9,093 bases of DNA from Congregibacter sp. (GTDB lineage Bacteria > Pseudomonadota > Gammaproteobacteria > Pseudomonadales > Halieaceae): assembly GCA_013911345.1 (NCBI GenBank), contig JACETJ010000041.1, positions 1 to 9,093 on the forward strand, written 5' to 3'. The position numbers and the translations under genes are program-made. The notes under the pieces were generated by a model. The model ran no database searches, was not told the origin of the DNA, and saw nothing but the letters and a program-made list of their open reading frames with translations. This document shows positions 1 through 9,046 of this stretch, piece after piece (the first letter of the stretch is position 1; the number at the start of each line of letters is the position of its first letter).

Positions 1-525
1 CCTGCCAAGAAAAAAGCCGTAGCCAAAAAAGCCGTAGCCAAAAAAGCACCTGCCAAAAAAGTCGCCAAGAAGAAAAGCACGGCCAAACTGGCGCGGGCCG
101 TGGGAGAGCTCCAAAAATTTGACGACTTCAAGCCTTACAAGCCAGGTCGTGGCGAGAGCTACATGAATGATGAGCAGATCGAGCACTTCAGAGGGATATT
201 GCTCAATTGGCGTGGTGAATTGGTCGATGAGGTCACTCGCACGGTCTCACATATGAAAGATGAGGCCGCCAACTTCCCCGACCCAGCAGATCGTGCCACG
301 CAGGAAGAAGAATTTAGTCTTGAGTTACGCACGCGAGACCGCGAGCGAAAGTTGATTAAGAAAATCGATTCAACGCTGGACCGATTGCAGAACGACGATT
401 ACGGCTACTGTGATGCCTGCGGCATCGAGATTGGTATTCAGCGGCTGGAGGCACGACCCACAGCGACCATGTGCATCGATTGTAAGACGCTGGCTGAAAT
501 CAAGGAGCGGCAGGAGCTGGGTTGA
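1..525 (+). CDS. dksA: RNA polymerase-binding transcription factor DksA, 5' end cut by window
   Basis: DksA binds in the RNA polymerase secondary channel and, with ppGpp, adjusts rRNA and amino-acid promoters. The reading frame is open from base 1, so the true start lies upstream; a GTG at 100 is in frame but would remove a Lys/Ala-rich segment that is clearly coding. The visible 174 residues comprise about 32 basic residues ([10 protein letters not shown] repeats), then the globular/coiled-coil part. The coiled-coil tip keeps DPADRA, the DxxDxA motif needed for activity. The C-terminal zinc finger has CDAC and CIDC pairs followed by [10 protein letters not shown], as in E. coli DksA. The stop TGA overlaps the TTG start of gluQ, so the two are probably co-transcribed. 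The oddity is the repetitive basic N-terminal extension, absent from the E. coli protein. Identification is secure; the N-terminus is not visible. Confidence 0.96.
7..75 (+). repeat. 15-bp tandem repeat encoding KKAVA units in DksA
   Basis: The unit aaaaaagccgtagcc occurs exactly at 10-24 and 25-39, degenerates at 40-54 (aaaaaagcacctgcc), and shortens at 55-66. It is in frame and encodes Lys-Lys-Ala-Val/Pro-Ala steps, resembling histone H1/AlgP-like tails. Exact copies containing A6 runs could change number by slippage without breaking the frame. Confidence 0.85.
512..516 (+). promoter_or_regulatory. Shine-Dalgarno AGGAG that fixes the TTG start of gluQ
   Basis: AGGAG lies inside the last codons of dksA with a 5-nt spacer to TTG 522. 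No ATG or GTG is suitably placed, so this site supports the rare TTG start and the coupled dksA/gluQ overlap. Confidence 0.65.
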
Positions 526-1391
526 GCGACTCACCAGAAGGCACTGATTCCCTACCCTATCGAGGGCGCTTCGCGCCCTCTCCGACCGGACCGCTGCATG
601 CGGGCTCGTTGGTCGCAGCTCTCGCGAGCTTCCTCGATGCGCGCCACCATAACGGCCACTGGCGGCTCCGCGTCGACGACATCGACCCACCCAGAGCTGC
701 CAGTGGTAGCGTCGACGCCATCAGCGAGGCCCTTGGTGCCCACGAGCTGATTTGGGACGACCCAACTCTCTTTCAATCCCACTCCTCGCAGCACTACGAC
801 AGGGCGCTTGATCAACTGATGGCATCCGGATGGCTGTTCCGATGTCTCTGTACCCGAGCCACACTCGACGCCAATGGCTGTTGTGGTCAGCACTGCCAAG
901 ATCAAAACATAAGCAGCGAAACGCCTCATAGTCTCCGTGTCAGGGTCGAGCCCGACCGGCTACAGGGATTTAGCGACCGGTTTATGGGGGAGCAACCTGC
1001 TGACGTCCGGACTGCGCCCAAAGACTTTATCGTAAAGCGACGCGATGGCCTCTACGCCTACCAACTGGCAGCAGCTATCGATGACGCCAAGCCCCATTTC
1101 ACTCACGTGGTCAGGGGCGCCGATCTGCTGGAATCGACGCATCGCCAACGCTGGCTTCAGCAACTCCTCGGGCTCGAGTCACCCGCTTACGCCCACGTGA
1201 GTATTCTGGTGGACCAGGCGGGTAACAAACTCAGCAAGCAGACCGGCGCGGCAGCACTGGACAACCACACGCCTGAACAGAACCTCCGCCAGTGTCTCCA
1301 GCACTTGCAACAAACATCCCCGCCGAGCTCGGCGCGGTGTGTCAAAGATATCCTCGACCACGCCACTAGCTGTTGGACTGTGAGAAGATAA
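522..1391 (+). CDS. gluQ: Glutamyl-Q tRNA(Asp) synthetase (GluQ/YadB)
   Basis: GluQ is a truncated GluRS paralogue that attaches glutamate to the queuosine base at position 34 of tRNA(Asp). The 289-residue protein has the class I start [14 protein letters not shown], with HAGS (26-29) as the HIGH signature, and KLSKQ (236-240) as the KMSKS signature. It lacks the GluRS anticodon-binding domain; total length fits GluQ (about 290-310), not full GluRS (about 470). A zinc site is present as C108-x-C110 and C121-x3-C125, where the E. coli protein uses Tyr for the third ligand. RVDDIDPPR matches the family's R-x-EDIDPPR segment. The start is TTG overlapping the dksA stop (TTGA). The dksA-gluQ pairing is typical of gammaproteobacteria. 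Confidence in the function is high. Confidence 0.94.
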
Positions 1392-1482: not shown

Positions 1483-2832
1483 ATGCGGATACAGCTCATT
1501 GAGGCAGACCCAACATTACTGGGTGATTTGAGAAAGGCGTGCGAGCTCGCCGGGGCCGCGGTGCTGACAGATATCCCGCAAGGAGAGCGAAGTCTCGCTG
1601 ACTGGCACCCTCATTGCGACCTGGTGATTGCAGGACAGCACCCCGCTTTCTCCGACTTGGCAACGCTGAACCGAACGATCTGGCCCATTCCGATCGCCGC
1701 CCTCTTGCCCTCATCACGACCGCAAAGTGTGGTGCAAGCTGCCCGCTCTGGTGCAGTCGACGTCTGCGATCGAGGGGCTGATACCGCGCAACTTGCCGAT
1801 TGGGTCGCGCAGTTATGTGCCGAACATGAGACAACTCAGCCCAATACAGAGCACGACAACTATTTTTCGAGTGGCTCGTGCCCACTGATGCGGGAACTTG
1901 AGAGCACCATTGCTCGTGTCGCGCAGACAGATTCTACGGCGCTGATAGTAGGCGAAACGGGCACAGGCAAGGAACTGGCTGCGAGACAAGTCCATCGCAT
2001 CAGTTTGCGAGGTGACAAACCTATTGTGACCGTCAACTGTGCTGCTATTCCCGAAACACTCATTGAGTCGGAATTGTTTGGGTACGAGAAAGGCGCCTTT
2101 ACCGGCGCAACATCTAATCGACTTGGTTTGATTGAGGCCGCTGATGGCGGCACCCTGTTTCTGGATGAAATTGGTGAATTGCCGCTAGCCGCGCAGGCTC
2201 GACTATTACGCTTCATACAAGAAGGGGAGATTCGCAGAATCGGCTCCGTAAGCAGCAAGCGAGTCGATGTCCGTCTTATCTGCGCCACTCACCGAAACCT
2301 TGCAGAACTGGCAGCTCGAGGCGAGTTTCGGGAAGACCTTTTCTATCGGATCGACGTACTCAGGTTGGATATACCCCCCCTGCGAGAACGCGAGGGCGAT
2401 GTTATCGCTCTTGCAAATTGGCTCATCGACAGACAGGCGGTAAAATTAGGCGTGCCGGCAAAGCCACTATCAGAACACAGCCGCGACCTTCTGGCCGCAC
2501 ATCACTGGCCGGGAAATGTTCGTGAACTGCAAAATGTGATCGAGCGAGGGCTTGTGATGTCTCGAGGCGCTGATCTGCATATCAGCCTGCCAGCGGCGGC
2601 TACAACTCAGGCAGGTCATCCCCTACCTGAAAGCACCTCTGAGGTGACACAATCGGCGGATGAGAGCAGTGGTGAATTGTCTCTTGAGGATTACTTTCAG
2701 CGATTTGTGCTGCAGCATCAAGACGCGATGAATGAAACGGAGCTGGCACAAAAATTGGGCATCAGTCGCAAATGCCTATGGGAGCGGAGACAACGTTTTG
2801 GCATCCCGCGCCAAAAACAAAAAACCGCCTGA
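1483..2832 (+). CDS. CbrB-like sigma54-dependent activator with a degenerate (pseudo-)receiver domain
   Basis: This 449-residue protein has three parts. Residues 1-115 have receiver-like order (start RIQLIEADP), but the phosphoacceptor position in DLVIAG is Gly51 instead of Asp, one acidic-pocket Asp is Ala8, and the conserved KP-type Lys is Arg97. Residues about 130-370 form the AAA+ domain: Walker A GETGTGKE (157-164), the sigma54-contacting loop GAFTGA (204-209), Walker B LFLDEIGEL (D228-E229), the sensor region CATHRNL and WPGNVREL. The C-terminus has a Fis-type helix-turn-helix, ETELAQKLGISRKCLWERR. I chose ATG 1483 over GTG 1471 because the receiver fold normally begins at MRI. The position, between gluQ and pcnB, is that of cbrB in Pseudomonas, but the partner kinase gene cbrA is absent. 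Activation by phosphorylation therefore looks unlikely; ligand control or constitutive action is inferred. Orthology to CbrB rests on synteny and the HTH and is not proven. Confidence 0.85.
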   Translation: MRIQLIEADPTLLGDLRKACELAGAAVLTDIPQGERSLADWHPHCDLVIAGQHPAFSDLATLNRTIWPIPIAALLPSSRPQSVVQAARSGAVDVCDRGADTAQLADWVAQLCAEHETTQPNTEHDNYFSSGSCPLMRELESTIARVAQTDSTALIVGETGTGKELAARQVHRISLRGDKPIVTVNCAAIPETLIESELFGYEKGAFTGATSNRLGLIEAADGGTLFLDEIGELPLAAQARLLRFIQEGEIRRIGSVSSKRVDVRLICATHRNLAELAARGEFREDLFYRIDVLRLDIPPLREREGDVIALANWLIDRQAVKLGVPAKPLSEHSRDLLAAHHWPGNVRELQNVIERGLVMSRGADLHISLPAAATTQAGHPLPESTSEVTQSADESSGELSLEDYFQRFVLQHQDAMNETELAQKLGISRKCLWERRQRFGIPRQKQKTA

Positions 2833-2856: not shown

Positions 2857-2947
2857 GTAACACTGTGGTGCAGATCCGTAACACTTTTCTGCCTTGGCGG
2901 CCCGGATATCCGGTCAAAAACTGGACAACACAATGTTTTATAACACT
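2857..2947 (+). promoter_or_regulatory. Candidate upstream activator sites: repeated GTAACACT
   Basis: GTAACACT occurs exactly at 2857-2864 and 2878-2885, and as ATAACACT at 2940-2947. The starts are 21 and 62 bp apart, close to two and six helical turns, so all would lie on one DNA face. Relative to the predicted transcript start at about 2984, the first two lie near -127 and -106, a typical enhancer distance for a sigma54 activator; the third lies near -44. A weaker CAACAC sits at 2926-2931. The same 8-mer occurs upstream of the regulator gene, which suggests it is the regulator's site. Binding is inferred. Confidence 0.6.
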
Positions 2948-2957
2948 TTTTTGAATA

Positions 2958-2973
2958 TGGCATGTGACCTGCA
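2958..2973 (+). promoter_or_regulatory. Sigma54 (-24/-12) promoter driving the intergenic RNA
   Basis: TGGCATGTGACCTGCA matches the sigma54 consensus TGGCACG-N4-TTGCA except for T in place of C in the -24 element and C in place of T in the -12 element. The invariant GG (2959-2960) and GC (2971-2972) have the strict spacing required. It lies about 125 bp after a sigma54 activator gene and downstream of the GTAACACT repeats. The predicted start is at about 2984. Confidence 0.72.
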
Positions 2974-2983
2974 GTTATTAGAG

Positions 2984-3073
2984 CAGAGCCCCAATAATAA
3001 TAATGGGCCCAATAAAAAAAACGATGTCATAACGGACCTGGGTGGGGAAGGAAACTTCCCCATGTTTCGTTTT
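2984..3073 (+). ncRNA. Candidate CrcZ-like small RNA with two ARN (Hfq-binding) tracts
   Basis: The RNA is defined by the -24/-12 promoter upstream and a terminator hairpin at its end; both ends are predictions. It would be about 90 nt. It carries (AAU)4 at 2993-3004 and AAU-AAA-AAA-AAC at 3011-3022, each exactly four ARN triplets, the motif bound by the distal face of Hfq and matching the AAnAAnAA pattern of Pseudomonas CrcZ. GCCC (2988-2991) and GGGC (3005-3008) can pair and expose the first tract in a loop. AAAACG (3018-3023) could pair with CGTTTT (3068-3073), which might mask the second tract. CrcZ lies at this same place after cbrB in Pseudomonas but is about 400 nt with more CA motifs. 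By analogy it would sequester Hfq and relieve catabolite repression. Alternatives are an untranslated leader of pcnB, or an RNA with other targets. Confidence 0.58.
3042..3073 (+). terminator. Intrinsic terminator of the candidate sRNA
   Basis: An 8-bp stem (TGGGGAAG 3043-3050 with CTTCCCCA 3055-3062) closed by a GAAA tetraloop is followed by the T-rich run TGTTTCGTTTT. The stem is strong. The T-run is interrupted by a G and a CG, so some read-through into pcnB is likely. Confidence 0.62.
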
Positions 3074-3090
3074 GGGCCTCCTACTTCCTC

Positions 3091-3132: not shown

Positions 3133-4437
3133 TTGGCGCCCGGCGGCACAGTGGATGCCAGCCCCTTGACGTCAAAGAGACCCGATGTACCCAGCTTTAA
3201 GTCCTCAGATTTTTCCCGGGGGGCGGTACTCGTGGTTGAGGAGCTAAAACAGCAAGGCTTCGACGCCTATGTTGTCGGCGGCGCAGTGCGAGATCTGCTA
3301 ATCGGCAAGCAGCCGAAAGATTTCGATGTCGCCACCAATGCCACCCCCGACCAAATTAAACAGTGCTTTCGCAATGCCCGAATCATAGGTCGCCGCTTTC
3401 AGATCGTTCACGTTCGGGTGGGGCGGGAAATCATCGAGGTCACCACGTTTCGTCGCGGTCATGATGTTGGGCGCTCCGCGCAAGACGCGCAATCAAGCCA
3501 GTCAGGTCGATTGTTGAGGGACAATGTATATGGATCGCTTGAGGAAGATGCCAAGCGGCGAGATCTCACCATCAACTCCCTGTATTACGATACATCTTCC
3601 CATCAGTTCATCGATCAACTGGGCGGCCAGGCTGACATCGCGGATCGCATTATCCGGATCATTGGCGACCCTGCAGAGCGGTATCGCGAAGACCCTGTCC
3701 GCATGCTGCGGGTTGTACGTTTTGCCGCGCGTCTCAAGTTTGATTTGGAACCCAATACCGAGGCAGCGATCGCCCTATGTCGCGGGTTACTTAACGATAT
3801 TCCGCCTGCGCGCCTTTTCGATGATTGGCTGAAGTTGTTCATGAACGGCTTCTCTGCACCCACATTCACGCTGCTGAGACAACACGAATTACTTCTCCCT
3901 CTAATGGGCGCAGCTGCCTGCTCTGCAATAGAGGGAGAACCTACACTTGAGTTGCAGCAGCTGGCGCTCGCCAATACGGATCGCCGGGTTGCTGACCAGC
4001 GACCTGTCACACCAGCATTCCTGCTTGCCGCGATTTATTGGCCCGCCGTGGAGGCGTGCGCGGCAAAGCTTGCAGCAGACGGGGAGTCGCCGCTTCAAGC
4101 TATGCACAGCGCAGGGCAACAAGTTGTCCAACAAGCGTGTCAACACCTCGCTATTCCCAAGCGCTTCTCTCTGGCAATGCGGGACATCTGGGATCTTCAG
4201 CCTCGTCTGGAGCGCATGCAGCCAAAGAAAATCAAAGATAACCTGGCCCATCGGTGGTTCCGCGCGTCATTCGATTTACGTTTACTCCGAGAACAAACTG
4301 ACGCCTTGGGAGACGACTGCTCCGCGTTCTGGACCGACCAGCAGAAACAACACCCGGAGCTGGTAGGTAGCGCACGAGCACGCCGCGAGGATCGCGGTGA
4401 ACGCCGACCCCGGCGGCGCAAAAATCGCGATTCATGA
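3133..4437 (+). CDS. pcnB: Poly(A) polymerase I
   Basis: PcnB adds poly(A) tails to mRNA and sRNA 3' ends, which promotes their decay. The nucleotidyltransferase head shows YVVGGAVRDLLIG and KDFDVATNATPDQ, with the catalytic Asp pair D63 and D65 counted from TTG 3133. Family segments RRDLTINSLYYD and GDPAERYREDPVRMLRVVRF follow. The basic tail RERRPRRRK-like C-terminus (RRPRRRKNRDS) is characteristic of PcnB rather than of CCA-adding enzyme. The length of up to 434 residues fits. No in-frame ATG exists at the 5' end: TTG 3133, GTG 3151 and TTG 3166 are all possible, none has a clear Shine-Dalgarno, and homology begins only around residue 18, so the start is unresolved. The stop overlaps the folK ATG (ATGA), implying coupling. 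It follows an activator and candidate sRNA, as in the Pseudomonas cbrB-crcZ-pcnB order. Confidence 0.93.
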   Translation: MAPGGTVDASPLTSKRPDVPSFKSSDFSRGAVLVVEELKQQGFDAYVVGGAVRDLLIGKQPKDFDVATNATPDQIKQCFRNARIIGRRFQIVHVRVGREIIEVTTFRRGHDVGRSAQDAQSSQSGRLLRDNVYGSLEEDAKRRDLTINSLYYDTSSHQFIDQLGGQADIADRIIRIIGDPAERYREDPVRMLRVVRFAARLKFDLEPNTEAAIALCRGLLNDIPPARLFDDWLKLFMNGFSAPTFTLLRQHELLLPLMGAAACSAIEGEPTLELQQLALANTDRRVADQRPVTPAFLLAAIYWPAVEACAAKLAADGESPLQAMHSAGQQVVQQACQHLAIPKRFSLAMRDIWDLQPRLERMQPKKIKDNLAHRWFRASFDLRLLREQTDALGDDCSAFWTDQQKQHPELVGSARARREDRGERRPRRRKNRDS

Positions 4438-5669: not shown

Positions 5670-6464
5670 ATGACCAAGCGCATCACCATCAGCACTTTGG
5701 ATGCCATGAAGGCGTCAGGTGACAAGTTTGTGATGATTACGGCCTACGACGCCACTTTTGCGCGGCTTGCCAGCGAGGCCGGGGCGGAGACTATTCTGGT
5801 CGGTGACTCACTGGGCATGGTGCTTCAGGGTCACGAGACAACCATCCCCGTCTCGCTCGATGCCATGGCTTATCACACTGAGTGTGTCGCGCGTGCGCGT
5901 CCTCATTCCCTTATCGTTGCCGACCTTCCGTTCATGAGCTTTTCCAATGCCGACGACACGCTCCATGCCAGCACGCGGCTCATGCAAGCCGGTGCGCAGA
6001 TGGTCAAATTGGAAGGTGGCACCTGGCTCAGCGATAGTATTCATCGGTTGGTTGAACGGGGTGTGCCGGTTTGCGCGCACCTGGGTTTGACCCCCCAATC
6101 AGTCAACGTGTTTGGCGGTTACCGAGTGCAGGGACGAACGCCGAAAGAGGCGAAGTCGATTTTGGCCGACGCCGTCGAAATTCAGGACGCCGGAGCCAGC
6201 CTGCTGGTTCTTGAATGTATTCCTGCCGAGCTGGCCGCCGATATCTCATCGAAACTCGATATCCCGGTCATTGGTATCGGAGCTGGCAGCGGCACCGACG
6301 CGCAGGTGCTCGTGCTCCACGATATGCTGGGCATGACAGAGACCGCGCCCAAATTCGTGCAGAACTTCATGGAGGGGGCCCCCTCGATTCAGGCTGCACT
6401 CAAGGCCTTCGTCGATGCAGTGAAAGCTGGCGAATATCCCAAGGAAGAGCACACCTACGCATAG
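5670..6464 (+). CDS. panB: 3-methyl-2-oxobutanoate hydroxymethyltransferase
   Basis: PanB transfers a hydroxymethyl group from methylene-tetrahydrofolate to alpha-ketoisovalerate, giving ketopantoate, the first committed step to pantothenate and CoA. From ATG 5670 the protein has 264 residues, equal to E. coli PanB. Metal ligands are present as D46 (LVGDSLGM), D85 (VADLPFM) and E115 (KLEGG), and the catalytic Glu is E182 (VLECIP). GIGAGSGTDAQVLVLHDMLG is also typical. A clear Shine-Dalgarno sets the start. The upstream folK supplies the folate branch used by this reaction. panC follows after 9 nt, so the two form an operon. A palindrome and a weak terminator-like hairpin just upstream may partly separate panBC from the pcnB-folK-kinase group. 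Confidence 0.97.
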   Translation: MTKRITISTLDAMKASGDKFVMITAYDATFARLASEAGAETILVGDSLGMVLQGHETTIPVSLDAMAYHTECVARARPHSLIVADLPFMSFSNADDTLHASTRLMQAGAQMVKLEGGTWLSDSIHRLVERGVPVCAHLGLTPQSVNVFGGYRVQGRTPKEAKSILADAVEIQDAGASLLVLECIPAELAADISSKLDIPVIGIGAGSGTDAQVLVLHDMLGMTETAPKFVQNFMEGAPSIQAALKAFVDAVKAGEYPKEEHTYA

Positions 6465-6473
6465 GCCCGCACA

Positions 6474-7331
6474 ATGAATGTCGTCTCAGACATGGCCGCC
6501 CTCGAAAAAGAGATGACGGCACTCAGACTCCGCGCTGGCCGCATCGCATTCGTGCCAACCATGGGGAACCTGCATGACGGCCATCTGGCTCTGGTCCGTC
6601 AGGCGCGTGCGGCCAGCGATGCGGTGGTGGTATCGGTCTTCGTGAACCCCATGCAGTTCGCCGCACATGAAGACCTGGATACCTATCCGCGCACTCTGGA
6701 TGACGACCTCAGCGCACTTCAGGAAGCCGGCGTAGATCTTGTCCTAACGCCCGATACAGACCACATCTATCCGGACGGCAGTGCTCGACACACAGCCATT
6801 CATGTACCCGTGCTGGGTGACGCGCTGTGTGGCAAGGATCGACCCGGGCACTTCGATGGTGTCTGCACCGTGGTCTACAAGCTATTCCAACTCGTGGGCC
6901 CCGACATTGCTGTGTTCGGCGAGAAAGACCTGCAGCAATTACTCATCATCAAAAAAATGGTTACCGACCTTAGCCTGCCCATCGACATACAGTCAGGGCC
7001 GACTCAACGTGCGGAAGATGGCCTCGCACTGAGCTCCCGCAACCAGTACCTGTCGGCATCAGAACGTGCCGTGGCGCCCTTACTGCGGCAAACCTTGCAA
7101 AGCTGTGGCGCGGCCCTGAGGGCAACACCGGACGATCCGCCGACGTTAATTATCGACCCTGCGAGGGAGGCACTGGAGCGCGCCGGGTTTACGGTCGATT
7201 ATCTAGAGCTCAGAGAGCTTGCGACGCTCCAGCTCGTCGATCGTATAGATCAAGATTGCGCACTGTTCGTCGCTGCACGGCTGGGCGAAACGCGCTTGAT
7301 TGACAACATCCAACTCGCCGCGAGCGGCTAG
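6474..7331 (+). CDS. panC: Pantothenate synthetase (pantoate--beta-alanine ligase)
   Basis: PanC joins pantoate and beta-alanine with ATP through a pantoyl-adenylate, the last step of pantothenate synthesis. The 285-residue protein matches the usual 280-285. VPTMGNLHDGH gives the HIGH-like residues H34 and H37; FVNPMQF, the GDALCGKDRPGHFDGVCTVV pocket, FGEKDLQQ and the KMSKS-equivalent LALSSRNQYL follow in order. The start ATG is 9 nt after the panB stop with no good Shine-Dalgarno, so translation probably depends on coupling to panB. The stop TAG shares bases with the stop of the opposing symporter gene (CTAG at 7328-7331), so there is no room for a dedicated terminator downstream. Confidence 0.97.
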   Translation: MNVVSDMAALEKEMTALRLRAGRIAFVPTMGNLHDGHLALVRQARAASDAVVVSVFVNPMQFAAHEDLDTYPRTLDDDLSALQEAGVDLVLTPDTDHIYPDGSARHTAIHVPVLGDALCGKDRPGHFDGVCTVVYKLFQLVGPDIAVFGEKDLQQLLIIKKMVTDLSLPIDIQSGPTQRAEDGLALSSRNQYLSASERAVAPLLRQTLQSCGAALRATPDDPPTLIIDPAREALERAGFTVDYLELRELATLQLVDRIDQDCALFVAARLGETRLIDNIQLAASG

Positions 7332-9046
7332 CTCGGAGACACTGGCACTCTGATCTCTTCAACCAGCTGTTGCACCGACGCCGGGGGCGGCGCGGTCAGG
7401 CGACTCACGGTCAGCGTGACACTGAAGTTCACGATTGCACCCACCACACCAAAGGCATTGGGCTCGATACCCAGAAACCAATTGGGCGGCAGATCGCCGA
7501 GGAAACTGGTGCCGGGGATGAACATGATCCCTTTGTGCTGAAAAACATATGCCAGCGTCACCCCGATCCCCGCCAGCATGCCCAACACAGCACCCTCTCG
7601 AGTCACCCGCTTTGAGAAAATGCCTAGCAGTAAGGCTGGGAACAGGGACGATGCCGCCAATCCAAAAGCCAGCGCTACCGTGCCCGCTGCAAAGCCCGGC
7701 GGGTTCAACCCCAAGTAACCTGCCCCCAGCACCGCCCCCGCCATCGCCAGACGCGAAGCCATGAGTTCCTGTCGCTCCGAAATGTCCGGCATCAGTGTGC
7801 GCTTAAGTAGGTCGTGGGAAACCGCCGACGAAATAGCCAGTAGGAGCCCCGCCGCGGTGGACAGCGCCGCCGCCAAGCCGCCTGCCGCGACCAACGCAAT
7901 GACCCAATTGGGCAGCTTCGCAATTTCGGGATTGGCCAGTACCAGAATGTCGTTATCCAGCGTCACCAATTCGTTGGTATCGGGATCAGCAGAGTACTGA
8001 ATCAGGCCGTCATCGTTTTTATCCTCGATACCCAAGAGACCCGTCTGCTCCCAGTTTTTGAACCACGCCGGCCGCTCCTCAACCGCAAGATGCTGGCCGG
8101 GCTGCGGCTCCAACGTCTGCAGTATGTTAAGCCGCGCCATGGCAGCGACAGCGGGTGCCGTAGTGTAAAGAATCGCAATGAACAACAGCGCCCAGCCGGC
8201 CGAGGTGCGGGCGGCGCGCACAGTCGGCACTGTGAAAAAGCGAATAATGACGTGGGGCAATCCTGCGGTACCGATCATCAACGAAGCAGTAAACGCAGCC
8301 ATATTGAGGGTGCTGCCGCGAACCGACGTGGTGTATTCCTGAAAGCCCAGATCCAGCAGGGTGCGGTCGAGTTTCTCCAGCAGATACGTGCCATCGGCAA
8401 GGGTAGAACCCAGCCCGATTTGTGGCACCGGCTGACCAGTCAGCTGCAGGCTGATAAAAATCGCCGGCACGGTATAGGCAAAAATCAGCACACAGAACTG
8501 GGCGATCTGGGTGTAGGTAATCCCTTTCATCCCGCCGAGCACGGCGTAGAAAAAAACGATGACCATCCCCGAGAACAGGCCGGTCTCATAGTCAGTCTCG
8601 AGAAAACGCGAGAAGGCCACACCGATACCTTTCATCTGCCCGATCACATACGTCACCGAGCAAATGATCAGGCAAATCACCGCCACTATCCGCGCAGTAT
8701 TGGAGTAGTAGCGATCGCCAATGAACTCAGGGACGGTGAACTTGCCGTATTTCCTCAGGTATGGCGCGATCAGCATGGCTAGAATCACATAGCCGCCGGT
8801 CCAGCCCATCAGAAATACCGAGCCACCATAACCGTTGTAAGAGAGACCAATGAGGCCCGCCATGGAGATGAACGACGCTGCCGACATCCAGTCAGCCGCC
8901 GTCGCCATGCCGTTAGCCACGGGGTGAATACCCTTCCCGGCGACGTAAAACTCCTGAGTCGACCCGGCACGTGAGCGGATCGCGATAAAAATATAGAGCG
9001 CAAAGGATGCGCCCACCACCAGGTAAGTCGTCTCAGTGAGGCTCAT
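7328..9046 (-). CDS. Sodium:solute symporter large subunit (SSS family, VC_2705-type)
   Basis: This 572-residue inner-membrane protein is a member of the solute:sodium symporter family, with roughly 13 hydrophobic segments. GGMKGITYTQ (171-180) and LSTAAGLLLAISSAVSHDL (about 395-413) resemble ActP/SSS helices; the Ser-Thr of the latter lies where the Na2 site is found in the family. Unlike ActP it has a long polar insert (about 307-378), with WFKNWEQTGLLGIEDKNDDG, a feature I associate with the VC_2705 subfamily that is paired with a small DUF4212 subunit. The insert includes an EF-hand-like loop (342-353). The start ATG overlaps the upstream stop (ATGA), and AGGAG (plus-strand 9055-9059) lies 8 nt before it. 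The substrate is unknown; acetate or another small carboxylate is possible. Its 3' end overlaps the panC stop on the other strand. Confidence 0.9.
   Translation of the reverse strand: MSLTETTYLVVGASFALYIFIAIRSRAGSTQEFYVAGKGIHPVANGMATAADWMSAASFISMAGLIGLSYNGYGGSVFLMGWTGGYVILAMLIAPYLRKYGKFTVPEFIGDRYYSNTARIVAVICLIICSVTYVIGQMKGIGVAFSRFLETDYETGLFSGMVIVFFYAVLGGMKGITYTQIAQFCVLIFAYTVPAIFISLQLTGQPVPQIGLGSTLADGTYLLEKLDRTLLDLGFQEYTTSVRGSTLNMAAFTASLMIGTAGLPHVIIRFFTVPTVRAARTSAGWALLFIAILYTTAPAVAAMARLNILQTLEPQPGQHLAVEERPAWFKNWEQTGLLGIEDKNDDGLIQYSADPDTNELVTLDNDILVLANPEIAKLPNWVIALVAAGGLAAALSTAAGLLLAISSAVSHDLLKRTLMPDISERQELMASRLAMAGAVLGAGYLGLNPPGFAAGTVALAFGLAASSLFPALLLGIFSKRVTREGAVLGMLAGIGVTLAYVFQHKGIMFIPGTSFLGDLPPNWFLGIEPNAFGVVGAIVNFSVTLTVSRLTAPPPASVQQLVEEIRVPVSPS
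7988..8023 (-). other. EF-hand-like loop in the symporter insert
   Basis: Residues 342-353 read DKNDDGLIQYSA: acidic or amide side chains at loop positions 1, 3 and 5, Gly at 6 and Ile at 8, as in an EF-hand or dockerin loop, but the position-12 acidic residue is Ala, followed by Asp354. Calcium binding is possible but not established. Confidence 0.4.

Follow-up and report, generated by a model that had tools for sequence, protein, structure and literature searches.

A predicted small RNA of about 90 nt between a cbrB-like gene and pcnB (positions 2984 to ~3074) is very probably a single-module RNA of the CrcZ type, i.e., a CbrB-driven decoy for Hfq and Crc that would work without input from CbrA. 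The window, by which we mean the whole stretch of DNA analysed (9,093 nucleotides), comes from an organism close to uncultured Luminiphilus (Halieaceae). The preliminary description of this DNA had suggested a shortened CrcZ-type Hfq decoy outside Pseudomonas. The conservation of the element, the orthology of the neighbouring cbrB, the GTAACA sites and the encoded partners, all of them evidence from sequence, lend support to this suggestion.

The Locus and the Predicted RNA

The window carries, in this order, dksA, gluQ, a sigma54 activator gene, the RNA element, pcnB, folK, a deoxynucleoside kinase gene, panB and panC; the names folK, panB and panC were assigned by inspection of the translated sequences. 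A gene for a VC_2705 family sodium/solute symporter (7328-9046, - strand) is convergent to panC. The placement of the element between a CbrB-like gene and pcnB, as originally described, was borne out by Pfam matches, by the orthology of cbrB and by the loci of relatives. A weak match to the Guanidine-II riboswitch (722-765, + strand; 20.5 bits against a cut-off of 32) is probably due to chance, as it is under the cut-off and lies within gluQ. The features of the locus are as follows:

522..1391, +, gluQ (Pfam tRNA-synt_1c), adjoining the 5' side of cbrB, where relatives with larger genomes have cbrA
1483..2832, +, CbrB orthologue, a sigma54 AAA+ activator with a CbrB-type C-terminal end (Pfam Sigma54_activat, 228 bits)
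1483..1836, +, pseudo-receiver domain of CbrB (phospho-Asp column occupied by Gly; Thr and Lys columns changed too)
2857..2862, +, candidate CbrB subsite of type R, GTAACA, at -127 (pair spacing kept; shuffles)
2878..2883, +, candidate CbrB subsite of type R, GTAACA, at -106 (position kept in relatives)
2958..2972, +, sigma54 -24/-12 promoter TGGCATGTGACCTGC (GG-N10-GC), at an equivalent position in relatives
2984..~3074, +, predicted small RNA of ~90 nt, minimal CrcZ type (promoter spacing, conservation, models R1 and R2)
2988..2991, +, 5' arm of a short predicted hairpin whose loop contains ARN tract 1 (predicted fold)
2993..3004, +, ARN tract 1 AATAATAATAAT, predicted Hfq distal-face site (sequence, alignment, shuffles)
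3005..3010, +, GGGCCC linker; 3005-3008 form the 3' arm of the short predicted hairpin
3011..3022, +, ARN tract 2 AATAAAAAAAAC, predicted Hfq distal-face site (sequence, alignment, shuffles)
3023..3042, +, near-invariant block GATGTCATAACGGACCTGGG with an ACCTGG core (one variable column among 21 sequences)
3042..3063, +, GNRA hairpin, candidate terminator (9 pairs, GAAA loop), followed by GTTTCGTTTT
3064..3074, +, moderately U-rich tail (read from the sequence)
3133..4437, +, pcnB, the downstream flank (Pfam PolyA_pol)

The GG-N10-GC spacing of the promoter places the predicted transcription start at 2984, and, as the U-tail is moderate, the position of the 3' end is less certain than any other part of the RNA. 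Reading of the sequence agreed with the parts that had been claimed for the element, namely the -24/-12 promoter (2958-2972, GG-N10-GC), the two tracts of four ARN triplets separated by GGGCCC, and the GNRA-loop hairpin with a T-rich tail, for which nine pairs were counted at 3042-3063.

The window has a single (ARN)4-N6-(ARN)4 arrangement, and none of 200 dinucleotide shuffles has one. The sigma54 motif by itself proves little, as TGGCAY-N6-TGC is common enough in the window (four matches vs 0.33 expected). Its other matches lie at 1603-1617 on the + strand and at 3146-3160 and 5692-5706 on the - strand. The fold of the single RNA is moderately better than the folds of shuffles (z -2.0; 10 of 200 shuffles were equally good). 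The Infernal search proposed earlier as a check gave a mixed answer: the Rfam CrcZ model landed on the element and on the correct strand (2985-3080, +), but at 17.7 bits (E 0.2 for this window), far under the 95-bit gathering score of RF01675.

Conservation and Distribution of the RNA

The loci used for comparison were the best 80 of 126 matches to PcnB. Among the matches listed, the closest PcnB proteins (68-85% identity, 21 loci) belong to uncultured Luminiphilus and other Halieaceae, and the next (~50% identity, 59 loci) to Halomonadaceae. The sigma54 promoter is present in all 19 of the 21 Halieaceae loci with enough upstream sequence, and the tract region in 20 of the 21, the remaining locus, L014, being too short to judge (only 236 nt upstream) and for that reason left out of alignment A1. 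This alignment of the window with 20 loci spans 92 columns at a mean identity of 92%. Changes in the ARN tracts fall mostly at the free third (N) position; the only broken tract among the 20 alignable relatives is tract 1 of L001, in which the final triplet is disrupted. The hairpin loop is GAAA, GCAA, GCGA or GAGA, all of the GNRA type, in the window and in 19 of 19 examined loci of the clade. The expectation that the ARN tracts, the -24/-12 elements and the hairpin would be conserved in relatives thus held.

Covariation supports the 5' hairpin around ARN tract 1 only in the cbrA-bearing clade, as far as can be judged from arm-swap tests. There, none of 2000 swaps was as good as the observed pairing. 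The same test gave no support for the window's clade, where 130 of 2000 swaps did as well as the observed pairing by energy and 730 by helix length, or for the mid clade (1952 and 2000 of 2000, respectively), and in pair counting on A1 no measure exceeded shuffles.

Of 140 family genomes, 78 gave a match to model R1, one per genome. Forty of these 78 genomes, comprising all 26 weakest matches and 14 others, were fetched; a cbrB homologue adjoins the match in 39 of 40, pcnB in 39 of 40, and at least one of the two in all 40. At one fetched locus, L150, the promoter fits poorly and pcnB was not matched; its genome (G049) has no CbrA-class match. The window, 19 Halieaceae loci and the 40 fetched loci made up the set of 60 sequences processed by script, and A2 holds 52 of these 60 (absent: L002, L005, L009, L136, L147, L161, L164 and L173). 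A second model, R2, rests on 52 sequences; it matched 131 of the 140 family genomes, and about 50 of these 131 had contributed sequences to it. Of 390 genomes sampled from the order, 67 gave a match to R2 and 71 to the Rfam CrcZ model, 19 of the latter above the cut-off. Twenty of the Rfam matches were fetched; a cbrB homologue lies within ~2 kb of 12 and pcnB within ~2 kb of 17. Many of these loci show GTAACA and a sigma54 site ahead of ARN-rich RNAs of ~80-410 nt.

In 15 of 26 fetched cbrA-bearing loci (L137, L139, L141, L142, L144, L145, L148, L149, L151, L152, L154-L156, L158 and L159) a second ACCTGG hairpin motif follows 95-258 nt past the first. ARN tracts of at least four triplets precede this second motif as a pair in 11 loci and singly in 2, with none in 2. 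No sigma54-like site was found ahead of the second module (within 140 nt, after the first module) in any of the 15. Hence, in these loci the hairpin need not terminate transcription. R2 gives at least two matches in 54 of the 83 genomes outside the cbrA-less block defined below and in 0 of the 57 inside it; together with the second modules of relatives, these counts indicate that the RNA of the window is the one-module form.

All 59 Halomonadaceae loci escaped R2 because their RNA is of a longer type. CbrB, recognised by a motif test, precedes pcnB in 55 of these 59 loci (L022-L080). In each of these 55, a sigma54 site has an ARN tract of at least four triplets no more than 70 nt downstream and a GTAACA no more than 140 nt upstream, the latter counted without shuffle control. 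The density of ARN tracts in the Halomonadaceae cbrB-pcnB gap is 5.3 per kb vs 0.05 elsewhere in the loci, and in sequence this gap looks like a long CrcZ.

CbrB and Its Candidate Upstream Sites

The CbrB homologue of the window shows 47-50% identity to CbrB at nine loci whose RNA scores over the Rfam CrcZ cut-off, and the C-terminal DNA-binding end is nearly identical between them. We call these nine reference loci Pseudomonas-type. Judged by its place and by the C-terminal similarity, the neighbour gene is a CbrB orthologue.

Additionally, the region upstream of the promoter holds two GTAACAC repeats (2857-2863 and 2878-2884) placed 21 bp apart (GTAACAC-N14-GTAACAC), which the preliminary description did not mention. 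Such a repeat pair occurred in 1 of 200 shuffles, with a mean of 0.01. In P. putida, the CbrB subsites TGTTAC (forward) and GTAACA (reverse) are spaced 20-25 bp (PMC6296734), and the two predicted R subsites of the window, 21 bp apart, fall within this range. The forward subsite F1 (TGTTAC) of the P. putida arrangement has no perfect match in the window. All 19 Halieaceae loci examined share the window's GTAACA pair and its spacing. Each of the 58 loci inspected for the site has a GTAACA at -105 to -108, and 6.7% of shuffles contain a copy anywhere in the region. Thirty-eight of the 58 have a pair spaced 19-25 bp vs 0.03% of shuffles; these counts omit L147, whose hairpin was unmatched by the script, and L161, which ends with its contig. 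A chance origin of the element was rejected on the shuffles of the ARN tract pair, of the GTAACAC repeat and of GTAACA in the loci.

Probable Loss of cbrA and Degeneration of the CbrB Receiver

In the window, cbrA is absent from its place beside cbrB, which gluQ adjoins directly. The same order is seen in the cbrA-less loci with upstream sequence from the window's clade and its sister clades. In relatives with larger genomes a kinase ORF precedes cbrB; PAS, HisKA and HATPase domains were recognised in the one example scanned. The ORF encodes ~1000 aa in most genomes and ~400 aa in G020-G023, where the CbrA-class kinase probably has no transporter part. Seventy-five of the 140 family genomes gave a CbrA-class match, and none of these is among the 57 in the block of the window's relatives (G001-G008, G065-G113), a block delimited on the lack of CbrA, so that this absence holds by construction. 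Some of its genomes have generic kinases at 28-36% identity, and 8 of the remaining 83 genomes also have no CbrA-class match. In a tree of the AAA+/HTH part of CbrB the cbrA-less rows lie on one side of a branch with 99% SH-aLRT, which requires one state change, and we read the missing cbrA in the clade as one loss. The tree was made by a quick method that gave a long-branch warning and contains 58 of the 60 sequences and three outgroup rows; L150 and L161, which have no cbrB ORF, are omitted, and the block as a single clade rests on 33 CbrB rows.

Concomitantly, the receiver domain has changed. CbrB of cbrA-bearing relatives has a standard intact receiver. In the window's CbrB, Response_reg gave no Pfam match up to E 0.1, and the phospho-Asp is lost in the window's subclade. 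Other cbrA-less subclades differ: this Asp is replaced by Glu in L162, L165 and L167-L170, and is retained with loss of the conserved Thr in L160, L163, L164, L166 and L171-L173. The domain still folds as a receiver in prediction: the AlphaFold2 model (pLDDT 82.6) has five beta-alpha units in a CheY-like fold, and its best PDB fold match, narrowly above many other receivers, is the orphan regulator HP1043. With no adjoining cbrA and a degenerate receiver, the window's CbrB cannot receive the usual carbon signal in the way it does in Pseudomonas.

Candidate Partners of the RNA

Hfq and RpoN are present in all eight Halieaceae genomes examined. The Hfq core of these relatives presumably equals that of Pseudomonas Hfq. 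Tyr25, a change of which in P. aeruginosa Hfq abolishes CrcZ binding (PMC4063720), is kept in the eight Hfq sequences inspected. Exonuclease III is encoded in 8 of 8 genomes (one protein was compared with PDB), and 7 of the 8 encode a second ExoIII-like protein without the DWN-type motif, which holds catalytic residues of ExoIII. One of these second proteins found Crc as its best PDB match, with 186.6 bits vs 126.8 for exonuclease. On these sequence grounds, the ExoIII-like proteins L095 and L097-L102, which lack the catalytic motif, are probable Crc proteins; no Crc-class match was obtained for G003, one of the eight genomes. A profile of six Crc-class members matched 127 of 140 family genomes with at least 256 bits, and the next class starts at 215 bits among the matches listed. 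G101, whose Crc-like match is partial and lies at the end of a contig, is scored here as a genome without Crc. NCBIfam names the Crc-class proteins scanned (L095, L099) exodeoxyribonuclease III.

The Proposed Mechanism and Alternative Readings

The conserved sites suggest that the adjacent CbrB, bound to the GTAACA repeats, activates the sigma54 promoter. The transcript would expose two (ARN)4 tracts, each able to fill the distal face of one Hfq hexamer. If the mechanism known from P. aeruginosa applies, it would compete with A-rich mRNA sites for Hfq and Crc and so relieve repression. As cbrA is missing and the receiver is not phosphorylatable, CbrB in the window's clade is probably constitutively active or otherwise controlled; a 40% activation in vitro is described for unphosphorylated Pseudomonas CbrB (PMC8871633), which makes a phosphorylation-free step plausible. 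Instead of reporting carbon via CbrA, the RNA may set a standing level of Hfq/Crc titration. With two ARN tracts instead of six it would be a weak sponge unless abundant. A more far-reaching version, which we hold only tentatively and rate as somewhat short of probable, is that of a decoy RNA detached from its sensor, in which, in streamlined marine Halieaceae, a pseudo-receiver CbrB rather than a phosphorelay sets the level of an unusually small Hfq/Crc sponge and the ACCUGG hairpin is a second functional part absent from Pseudomonas CrcZ.

The invariant block at 3023-3042 is something that a mere decoy does not need, and it is more conserved than the tracts. The RNA could also, or mainly, be a base-pairing sRNA, with the invariant GAUGUCAUAACGGACCUGGG block as its seed and the ARN tracts recruiting Hfq; the recurrence of the ACCUGG core in both modules, and also in the genomes of L229 and L231, points in this direction. 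We nevertheless regard this as rather unlikely, since the core is absent from two inspected RNAs over the cut-off (L232, L233) and the tracts are constrained too, as seen in the position of their changes. Less probable still is that the transcript is mainly a sigma54-driven leader of pcnB whose tracts and hairpin act in cis through Hfq. Although pcnB lies downstream in the same orientation, the U-tail is weak and the relatives' second modules without a sigma54 site imply read-through, in close relatives the PcnB match starts anywhere between ~140 and ~390 nt past ARN tract 1, while the RNA core is near invariant. Moreover, crcZ of Pseudomonas is described as a regulatory RNA gene forming a unit separate from cbrAB in passages of PMC8871633 that are silent on pcnB.

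Two further readings are very improbable. A peptide, MDLDGE..FP, can be read in many relatives from an ATG at the hairpin foot, in a frame of ~14 residues that is open to the end of the aligned stretch and has a common start in many cbrA-bearing relatives. However, the window's clade has ACG where these relatives have ATG, some others have GTG, the spacing from ARN tract 2 shifts by 1-3 nt between lineages, and the hairpin stem explains the conservation; for want of a conserved start codon and because of the frame-shifting spacing, the coding reading was rejected. The lack of cbrA, the degenerate receiver and the absent second module in the window's clade would also suit a relic decaying after the loss of cbrA, were it not that the RNA core is 92% identical over 21 sequences vs receivers of the same clade that are 25-70% identical to that of the window, and that 52 of 57 genomes of the cbrA-less block retain one RNA copy (R2). 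A single-module CrcZ-type decoy remains the preferred reading.

Comparison with Known Systems

CrcZ, CrcY and CrcX (RF01675 and kin; Pseudomonas, Azotobacter) share with the window the order cbrB-RNA-pcnB, the sigma54 promoter, the GTAACA CbrB subsites and (ARN)n tracts, and the window's relatives encode Hfq and probably Crc. The CrcZ RNA of P. aeruginosa, called an Hfq decoy, is 407 nt long and has six (ARN)n motifs with n of at least 4 (PMC4063720), in contrast to ~90 nt and two predicted tracts of four triplets each in the window. The window RNA also differs by its own ACCUGG-hairpin 3' half and by having neither an adjoining cbrA nor a phosphorylatable CbrB. The first module of the two-module RNA of cbrA-bearing relatives aligns with the window RNA, and the promoter type and GTAACA are shared; these relatives differ in their second module (15 of 26 fetched loci), which lacks a sigma54 site, and in the presence of cbrA and an intact receiver. 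HP1043 and other orphan pseudo-receiver regulators resemble the window's CbrB in having a degenerate receiver and no cognate kinase, and HP1043 is described as working independently of phosphorylation (PMC8345958). Unlike CbrB of the window, a sigma54 AAA+ activator, HP1043 is of the OmpR/PhoB type and has no decoy RNA. RsmY and RsmZ use GGA motifs. They titrate an RNA-binding protein (PMC8871633), as proposed for the window RNA, but act on RsmA/RsmN, whereas the window RNA would act on Hfq via its ARN tracts.

Implications for the Halieaceae

Our literature search, which left most subscription journals outside its range, found nothing joining CrcZ and Halieaceae, and no title or abstract among the matches listed placed CrcZ outside Pseudomonadaceae; two papers mention CrcZ together with Halomonas. 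Transcripts of cbrAB were reported in a seawater metatranscriptome, in passages that name no host (PMC5073097). The RNA, its promoter, the candidate activator sites and the candidate partners span the marine family Halieaceae and seem to extend, with a longer RNA, to Halomonadaceae, which contrasts with a 2022 review describing CbrAB-CrcZ, in the passages concerned, as unique to Pseudomonadaceae (PMC8871633). The clade of the window may be viewed as a natural experiment in which the kinase gene is gone, the receiver has decayed in three ways and the RNA has been kept. This would make it possible to test what becomes of a two-component activator after the loss of its kinase, and what the lower size of an Hfq decoy may be.
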